DNA of 64,000 bases from Pseudomonadota bacterium (GTDB taxonomy: Bacteria; Pseudomonadota; Alphaproteobacteria; UBA8366). The translations under genes and the position numbers were made by a program. Shown here one piece after another: positions 6,615 to 8,333 of the stretch (position 1 is the stretch's first letter; each line of letters begins with the position of its first letter). The notes beneath the pieces were generated by a model. The model was not told the origin of the DNA. It worked only from the letters and a program-made list of their open reading frames with translations, and made no database searches. The DNA is taken from the NCBI GenBank assembly GCA_036339585.1, contig JAYZAS010000001.1, positions 124,001-188,000 on the forward strand. The letters run 5' to 3'.

Positions 6615-8333
6615 TTAGACAAGACAAACATTGTCGGCGCAACCAAGATCACGGTCGGCCTGCTCAAGCAGTTCTGACCAATTAGAGGGCGTTTCGACGA
6701 TTTTCTTGCCAACAGTCAAAGCATTTCCTTGCAGCCAGAAATTATGGGTGGGATGTGCCCCTCCAGCTACTAAGACCATTATACCATCGGGCCTCTGGCA
6801 AATAGGCCATGGGTCGATTGAGGCAGCCTGAGCCACAGGGTCAGTTGAAGCTCTTATCCATTGTTCGAGGCCAGATGAAATAACTATTTCCTTTTGGATC
6901 TTGGTATTCTCCCACAGAAATTCTTTAATCTTTGTCTTGGTCCAACCCAAACGTGCTAATTGTTTTGCTACCACAGGTGAAATTATCACCGCACCAGCTG
7001 TTCCACCAGTCCATCCCCTTATGTAATGCGGATTAGCCGTCTGCATATATGTAGAGATACGCCGAAGACTATCCTCGGCCTCGACAATCAAAGTTTCTTT
7101 CCCTGTGCCACGTCGAATAATATTAGCACCACCGGTAGCAATGAACACAGAGACACTGTTGGTGCCGCGCGGCACACCATGCCACTCAGTAGCATGCGTT
7201 TCCCAATCATCGGGAAATGTTTCTTCGGCCTCCGCAATTACAGCGTTGGTATATCTCATGGCTCCAAATATCGCCATTGTCCCAACCCCGGGCAATGCCC
7301 CGCCGACATTTTGCTGCATCAGTCTTACCGCACGCCCTATAATTCCACCTGCTGGAGCCTGCGGGTTTGGTCCCATTAAACCAAACCCGGAGTTTATCCG
7401 AATGTCCGAAGCGACCGGCCCATTCACTATTATAACGGGAAATGTCATACCAGACGTCGACTGCCATTTATCATGATCCATAGACGGATGAAGGATAGCC
7501 TCGACCGCGGCAATAAGTATTGATAAATACTCCGGGCGTCCACCCGCCATCGCGAGTGAGATAGCAATGGTTTCGATAGTCACTATGCCCCCACGAGGCA
7601 TAAATTTCCCTATTTTTTCATCGCGGGCTCTGTCTGTACCTTTGAGAATCCATTCAACCTTATCTGGGGTGGGTGGTATAATTGGGAGCCCATCTGACCA
7701 GAGATTCTTTATAAACAAGTTATTAACCGCAACCAGTGCTTTTGCATAATCTCCACCGTCGAGATTTATCATTTCGGCATTGCGCAACCCCAATTTACTA
7801 ACTGCTGAATTCCAATTGATAAATCCATCGATGAATTTCTTTTTTGCTTTTTTTACGGGAGAGAGGTCACTTTCAATTAAAAATACATCTATAGGAAACT
7901 CTACCATAGGTGTATCGCGGGCAAACCCGAGACCCGCTACCGCATTTCTTACCACTCCCGCAAAATCTTCACGTGCGAAAATAGTCGTTGGTATTTTGGA
8001 GGCTTCTAGTCTGGCGGCAGCACGGCCGCATGCAGTAGAACAATTACCTCAGGCAGCGTTCCCTATTAGAACGCCGTCAACGGCAAGCTCTTTTGCCCTT
8101 ATAACGGTAGCATCTGAGTCGATAACAGCATTGCCAATAGGAAATTCCTCATATGGTATTATTTCAATAGAAGGATACTCAGCCTTAAGCATTTCGCCTA
8201 CCAACGGCAATGTCCGATGGGCCTGCCAACTATCATTCGAAAGTAAAGCAATTTTCTTTCCATCCAGACTATTAAAACGCGGTGAATGTAGTTCGGTTAT
8301 TTCCGTTGCACCCGAGGGATCATAGATGTCCAT
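6615..8333 (-). CDS. UGSC-family selenoprotein with in-frame UGA (first tandem copy)
   Basis: The ORFs 8333-8049 and 7955-6615 share a frame and are divided by one TGA at 8049-8051. Reading it as selenocysteine gives 572 residues. The N-terminal UGSC domain shows YDPSGAT, SLDGKKIALLSND and VDGVLIGNAA, then Sec95-G-N-C98-S-T-A-C102-G-R and AAARLEASKIPTTIFARED. The downstream domain carries WSDGLPIIPPTPDKV, a KFMPRGGIVTIETIAISLAMAGGRPEYL block (about residues 235-262) and GGALPGVGTMAIFGAMRYTN. The C-terminus is C565-x4-C570-L-V. The ATG follows the ribosome binding site GGGAGGAC. It lies 27 bp upstream of the second copy, so they are very likely co-transcribed. An alternative GTG at codon 127, downstream of the UGA, would drop the whole active site and is rejected. 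No selA, selB, selC or selD gene is in the window. Confidence 0.88.
8020..8051 (-). promoter_or_regulatory. UGA codon and candidate bacterial SECIS hairpin, first UGSC gene
   Basis: The UGA lies at 8051-8049. GCAUG (8033-8029) pairs with CGUGC (8024-8020) around loop CGGC (8028-8025), beginning 16 nt past the UGA. The sequence directly before the hairpin differs from that in the second copy (GGUAAUUGUU versus GGGCGGUGCG). The hairpin and its flanks, CTGC before and TGCCGC after, are identical in nucleotides including silent positions, which points to selection on the RNA. Confidence 0.65.

Follow-up and report, generated by a model that had tools for sequence, protein, structure and literature searches.

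Two tandem genes predicted to encode fused UGSC selenoproteins, and a probable distant relationship of their selenocysteine domain to GrdB

The window analysed here, a 64,000-nucleotide stretch of an alphaproteobacterial contig (JAYZAS010000001.1), contains two tandem genes that almost certainly encode UGSC selenoproteins. Judged from sequence comparisons, the organism's own SelA, SelB, tRNA-Sec and SelD would read the UGA in each gene as selenocysteine (Sec), and a SECIS would lie immediately behind the codon. The pair are well-supported selenoprotein genes of a known family, in a known fused form. Profile comparisons and structure prediction further suggest that the UGSC domain is probably distantly homologous to the segment of GrdB that bears the Sec, and that its own Sec lies in a Rossmann-like fold, at the turn from a strand into a helix. 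An explanation that combines the Sec-encoding pair, the homology with GrdB and the attack of the Sec on a bond of a substrate is the one that we favour, and we consider it reasonably likely to hold as a whole.

Results

Two tandem genes with an in-frame UGA

The genes, called UGSC-A and UGSC-B, have the following features.

8340-8347, minus strand: Shine-Dalgarno-like GGGGAGGA of UGSC-A, about 6 nt 5' of the ATG at 8333
6615-8333, minus strand: UGSC-A, predicted fused UGSC/partner selenoprotein gene, 572 amino acids with the UGA read as Sec95
8049-8051, minus strand: in-frame UGA of UGSC-A (Sec95), kept in relatives
8014-8029, minus strand: SECIS-like hairpin of UGSC-A, stem GCGGC/GCCGC, loop CGTGCT, +19 to +34 past the UGA
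7884-8333, minus strand: UGSC domain of UGSC-A, about residues 1-150, predicted to be Rossmann-like
6618-7841, minus strand: second domain (partner) of UGSC-A, roughly residues 165-572; probably what the 2008 GOS paper names 'Unknown_1'
4857-6587, minus strand: UGSC-B, tandem paralogue of UGSC-A, 576 amino acids with the UGA read as Sec98
6294-6296, minus strand: in-frame UGA of UGSC-B (Sec98), at the same motif position as the UGA of UGSC-A
6259-6274, minus strand: SECIS-like hairpin of UGSC-B, with the same stem and loop as in UGSC-A

The first open reading frame of UGSC-A extends from 8333 to 8049 on the minus strand and encodes 94 amino acids, which end with LIGNAA in front of the TGA. Past the TGA the sequence goes on in the same frame with GNCSTACGRAAARLEASKIPT and remains open down to a TAA at 6615. 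The UGA at 8049-8051 is the only interruption; reading through it yields a protein of 572 amino acids in which the UGA is residue 95, within VLIGNAA-U-GNCSTACGRAAARLEASKIPTT. A preliminary description of this DNA had placed two open reading frames in one frame on either side of this TGA, with the UGA at residue 95 directly behind GNAA, and had expected standard annotation to split the gene. Its coordinates and motif are exact, and standard translation indeed gives two open reading frames. In its account of the gene, the frame and the motif stand; the tandem paralogue and the separate domain, which makes up about 420 of the 572 residues, were overlooked. UGSC-B starts 27 nt downstream of the stop codon of UGSC-A, with U98 in the motif GNAA-U-GRCASACGRAAARLE. 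The two proteins are 51% identical over their full length, and Shine-Dalgarno-like sequences precede both genes.

Family assignment

Both proteins match the Pfam UGSC profile (PF24696) across the UGA, with 64.4 bits for UGSC-A and 72.0 bits for UGSC-B (cut-off 25). Against the NCBIfam model NF041046 (UGSC_fam) they score 39.7 bits and 48.1 bits, respectively, which is too low for the equivalog (cut-off 125); the window proteins belong to the wider Pfam family and not to the equivalog. UGSC is an established selenoprotein family and among the most abundant ones of ocean metagenomes, and the fused layout 'UGSC/Unknown_1' was already on record in the 2008 GOS survey (PMC2398784). The preliminary description had called UGSC a known Sec-containing family, in agreement with this survey and with the Pfam matches. 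The window proteins share with the family the U-G-x-C motif, the SECIS region, the single TGA per gene and a Pfam match above the cut-off. They differ from it as a divergent fused subfamily, which has UGxCxxxCGR in place of UGSCT, scores below the NCBIfam cut-off and is present in the window as two copies in tandem. The U-G-x-C columns, including the second Cys, are invariant in 41 aligned UGSC domains.

Reading of the UGA codon

The source genome (G000; 2.79 Mb in 25 contigs, 100% complete) contains selA, selB, tRNA-Sec and selD, the machinery that the preliminary description had proposed to look for. On contig C10, selA, selB and the gene for tRNA-Sec are clustered. SelA was recognised by its sequence (locus L016, 3879-5300), selB by a match to TIGR00475 with 442.9 bits and tRNA-Sec by a score of 69.8 bits (cut-off 47). 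The selD gene is located on contig C18 inside an open frame of 766 amino acids. Its position is 9487-10404 of that contig, and the frame has the size expected of a fusion of NADH dehydrogenase and SelD.

Four UGSC genes are present in the source genome, each with exactly one in-frame TGA. UGSC genes occur in 17 of 190 genomes of the same class, and every listed copy has one TGA. Over all loci that were read, exactly one in-frame TGA is present in 116 of 122 UGSC copies and more than one in none. Of the other six copies, which have no TGA, two are fragments (L093, L098); the remaining four are complete and come from L090 and L094. A natural Cys form exists in L140 (genome G318), where a TGC occupies the Sec position in ALSD-C-GSCTSC. 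SelB was found in 21 of the 24 genomes tested. There was no selB match in G318, the genome with the Cys form, or in G469, the genome of L094; the genome of L090 does have one. The third genome with no selB match, G477, has a copy with the TGA; it is a MAG of 1.9 Mb and possibly incomplete.

The four complete copies with no TGA lack both Sec and Cys at the motif. They are fused UGSC-partner proteins at the following positions.

L090, 4406-6163, minus strand: Sec-less fused UGSC-partner protein
L090, 6464-8200, plus strand: Sec-less fused UGSC-partner protein
L094, 1175-2899, plus strand: Sec-less fused UGSC-partner protein
L094, 2991-4706, plus strand: Sec-less fused UGSC-partner protein

The genome of L090 (G471, in a record titled Acidobacteria) has about 27 UGSC copies, most of them in long open frames of fused size. 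Roughly two thirds contain the TGA and the rest do not, so that Sec and non-Sec forms are mixed in this large expansion.

Two other readings of the UGA have to be considered. If it were a true stop, UGSC-A would be a pseudogene, or it would encode a protein of 94 amino acids and a separate one of 446 amino acids. The two open reading frames of the standard translation and the unremarkable energy of the hairpin agree with a stop. Against it stand the recurrence of the UGA in the tandem copy and in nearly all of the relatives counted above, the presence of the Sec machinery, the existence of a Cys form, and the conservation of the coding sequence behind the codon. Of three regions of UGSC-A that were compared, conservation is highest in the 31 codons from the UGA to the next possible start (GTG at 7955): over 21 clade members the identity to the window protein is 61% in these codons versus 45% upstream and 49% downstream. 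We regard a true stop as highly improbable. A changed genetic code, in which UGA would be read as an ordinary amino acid throughout the organism, could account for the several genes of the genome with an in-frame TGA. TGA is, however, an ordinary stop in this genome: it ends 14 of the 47 long open reading frames of the window, and the UGSC gene of locus L024 itself stops at a TGA. This reading was rejected for that reason and is extremely improbable. Insertion of Sec, which the preliminary description had put forward, is supported by the machinery, by the counts of TGA copies, by the Cys form, by the use of TGA as an ordinary stop otherwise, and by the pattern of synonymous codons and the confident model of the whole read-through protein described below.

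A candidate SECIS behind the UGA

A hairpin had also been part of the preliminary description. One is present after the UGA, and comparative data support it; its energy alone is not significant. The hairpins of the window (GCGGC-CGTGCT-GCCGC) fold no better than dinucleotide shuffles, with z = 0.39 and -0.15. Because the energy is not exceptional, a hairpin seen by eye is weak evidence. In the fused clade the 5-bp stem with its CGTGCT loop, likewise at +19 to +34, is paired in 94% of the cells (20 sequences), with no double-sided change. Agreement of synonymous codons was scanned in eight-codon windows along the gene (514 windows, 21 sequences). The peak covers codons +2 to +9 behind the UGA, the location that a SECIS would demand; this is the highest of the 514 windows, and the agreement above expectation is 0.274 compared with a mean of 0.078 (sd 0.059). 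A longer stem occurs at +11 to +29 in 80 other UGSC copies; here the pair 17-23 is C-G in 32 and G-C in 45 sequences, which are related, so that the counts are not independent events. A SECIS directly after the UGA is supported as a candidate by the comparative data and not by the fold.

A partner domain that accompanies UGSC

The C-terminal part of UGSC-A, about 420 amino acids from about residue 165, has no Pfam or NCBIfam match. When this partner domain only was used to search 84,980 species genomes, at least 582 relatives came up, and the 80 best were retained. A UGSC gene is present in 72 of these 80 loci, and 2 of the other 8 are cut by contig ends. Where a partner copy has a UGSC on the same strand, the distance is within 400 nt in 85 of 96 cases. 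The arrangements seen are a fusion of UGSC and partner, UGSC followed by the partner, and the partner followed by UGSC. The last of these is found at the other two UGSC loci of the source genome, where the UGSC gene is preceded by a separate homologue of the partner domain (L016, 8166-9296; L024, 8627-10066). Genomes with a partner copy that has no adjoining UGSC contain a TGA-bearing UGSC elsewhere in 5 of 5 cases tested. The partner domain is thus fused to UGSC or encoded next to it with near constancy. From the way in which the GOS survey describes its UGSC fusion, it is probably the domain named 'Unknown_1' there (PMC2398784).

Partner genes with no adjoining UGSC were seen in L080, L084, L104 and L105, all from records titled Poribacteria; three of their genomes were tested, and each has a TGA-containing UGSC elsewhere. 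The stand-alone partner of L024 (8627-10066, minus strand), which lies beside a UGSC gene, has an N-terminal segment with CPTC. This segment gives a weak match to Thioredoxin_2 (E 0.0068), below the gathering score.

The partners contain a motif, MAG-C-x-PEY, in which the Cys is found in 71 of 87 sequences; the window clade has Gly at this position, and the Sec-less copies have Ala. Most members of the window clade have an extra Cys in UGxCxxxCGR. A link between the partner Cys and the extra Cys of UGSC is suggestive only. The structural model of the partner is confident (pLDDT 91.6). A fold search with it gave no clear structural match, the best Foldseek hit being fumarate hydratase with E 2e-3 and the best Z being 4.9.

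The fold of the UGSC domain and its similarity to GrdB

The whole read-through protein was modelled confidently with AlphaFold2 from 49 fused relatives, with a mean pLDDT of 92.7 and a pTM of 0.92. Strands and helices alternate in the predicted UGSC domain (strands 27-31, 57-59, 87-93, 116-121 and 143-146), and the modelled Sec95 is positioned at the junction of strand 87-93 with helix 96-111. The structures that this domain matches are generic Rossmann, receiver and B12-binding folds, with a best Z of 10.8; a Foldseek search with the whole protein gave no match below E 1e-3. The authors of the GOS survey judged a thioredoxin-like fold of UGSC likely, albeit not demonstrated (PMC2398784). The model does not support such a fold; no thioredoxin fold is among the listed structural matches of the UGSC domain, although absence from the list is not exclusion.

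The homology with GrdB proposed above comes from a comparison of profiles with hhalign. A profile of 41 UGSC domains aligned with a GrdB profile built from only two sequences (L150, L154) with a probability of 95.7 (P 9.1e-9) over 129 columns, Sec on Sec. Both GrdB sequences are from one genome, G475, which also carries UGSC, and have their in-frame TGA in UGTCTRCGA and UGTCSRSGA. Among the controls, the best of 61 families from neighbouring genes reached 9.5 (P 3.4e-3) and the reversed GrdB 3.0. One full GrdB also matches the Pfam UGSC profile at the Sec motif, with E 5.5e-4, which is below the gathering score. The window proteins have no match to the GRDB profile (PF07355); they are therefore not to be classed as GrdB, whereas a distant homology to its Sec segment is plausible. 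Around the Sec they have in common with GrdB the strand, the U-G-x-C, the helix, a Glu and a GIPTV strand. In contrast to GrdB, they lack the long N-terminal part, and their partner is not GrdE: identification of the partner domain as GrdE (PF09338) was rejected at a profile probability of 0.1. A search for GrdA found no match in the source genome and likewise none in any of the control genomes, and therefore does not demonstrate that GrdA is missing.

PrdB-like proteins, which are relatives within PF07355 (the 'proline reductase PrdB' of the GOS survey), align with UGSC at a probability of 76-83. They share the helix and the GI-T-V strand after the Sec motif, which in their case reads U-P-N-C-T-R-A-V. 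They differ in their N- and C-terminal parts, and a partner domain of the UGSC kind was not seen in them. Another tandem pair of hidden selenoprotein genes, of this type, is present in the source genome (L159, 4433-6878, minus strand; contig C4, about 338.4-340.9 kb), in which two PrdB/GrdB-like (PF07355) proteins each have an in-frame TGA at PVUPNCTRAV. In a limited search of the UGSC literature we found neither the link to GrdB nor the near-constant partner.

Gene neighbourhood

The genes around the pair, all of them possible members of a cluster, are listed below.

8497-9345, minus strand: SDR-family oxidoreductase gene, upstream of UGSC-A
2643-4676, minus strand: alpha/beta hydrolase (PF20091) gene, downstream of UGSC-B
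1-2363, minus strand: CoxG, CoxM-like and CoxS-like genes and part of an enoyl-CoA hydratase gene, downstream

CoxL-like and SDR genes, also possible cluster members, come next beyond the edge of the window. This local cluster is catabolic, though not conserved. The operon context was dismissed as a guide to function, since the cluster of the window is not conserved beside other fused copies. Frequent neighbours of UGSC elsewhere resemble, as named from their sequences, receptors of tripartite transporters, CoA transferases and MmgE/PrpD, which tells no more than that the setting is catabolic. The sole Rfam match in the window at the gathering score is a 6S RNA at 52943-53100 on the minus strand.

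Discussion

The probable relationship with GrdB suggests how the fused proteins might work. The mechanism proposed for GrdB begins with an attack of the Sec selenolate on a polarised carbon-heteroatom bond; the resulting selenoether would be cleaved by a thiol, which leaves a selenenylsulfide (PMC10298544). Cleavage of C-F bonds by GrdB-like proteins has also been proposed (PMC10838667). By homology, the partner domain of about 420 amino acids would bind the substrate, and the Sec of the UGSC domain would attack a polar carbon-heteroatom bond of the substrate so held and form a selenoether, in the manner proposed for GrdB. Next, the Cys at +3 of the U-x-x-C would release the product with formation of a selenenylsulfide, which a thioredoxin-type reductant would reset. 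For these catalytic steps (attack by Sec, resolution by Cys and the thioredoxin-type reset), which are modelled on GrdB, we see a chance slightly short of even. The partner is unrelated to GrdE by profile, and hence the way in which GrdB has its substrate polarised need not apply here.

Other functions are conceivable for the same motif. A thioredoxin-type Sec protein of thiol-disulfide redox reactions, as suggested in the 2008 GOS survey, would use the Sec and the +3 Cys on disulfides or peroxides, with the second domain as target or regulator. It would be in line with the U-x-x-C motif, with the thioredoxin-like extension on one partner, with the Cys of MAG-C-x-PEY in most partners, and with the opinion of the GOS authors on the fold and their remark on conserved Cys in the fused domains (PMC2398784). 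The alternating strands and helices of the predicted UGSC domain, with listed matches to Rossmann, receiver and B12-binding folds, speak against it, as do the strong similarity to GrdB and a window clade in which the partner Cys is missing; we think a function of this type unlikely. The Rossmann-like architecture could also belong to an enzyme of the racemase, lyase or isomerase type, in which the Sec would serve as acid-base or nucleophilic residue with no net reduction. The catabolic neighbours elsewhere (CoA transferases, MmgE/PrpD, transporter receptors), a profile match to hydantoin racemase (E = 1) and the fumarate hydratase hit of the partner point in this direction. However, the supporting matches are not significant, GrdB is a much better match, and the second Cys of U-G-x-C, present in 41 of 41 aligned domains, favours a redox step. 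Such an enzyme seems quite improbable to us.

Returning to bond cleavage of the GrdB kind, the thioredoxin-like extension on one partner and the many paralogues fit a family of reductases that is diversified by substrate; there are 4 UGSC paralogues in G000, 8 in G487 and 27 in G471, including copies with no TGA. As a tentative proposal, UGSC and its partner may constitute a class of two-component selenoenzymes related to GrdB, in which a partner of a new family, possibly with a new fold, would replace GrdE. These enzymes would cleave carbon-heteroatom bonds reductively in the catabolism of environmental bacteria, and the many paralogues would differ in substrate specificity.

Standard gene calling splits genes of this sort, and the subfamily of the window in addition misses the NCBIfam cut-off. 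The link to GrdB, together with the specific partner, turns UGSC from an orphan family into one with a testable enzyme hypothesis. If the reductive bond-cleaving chemistry were proven, catalysis of the glycine reductase type would extend past the known amino-acid-fermenting hosts.
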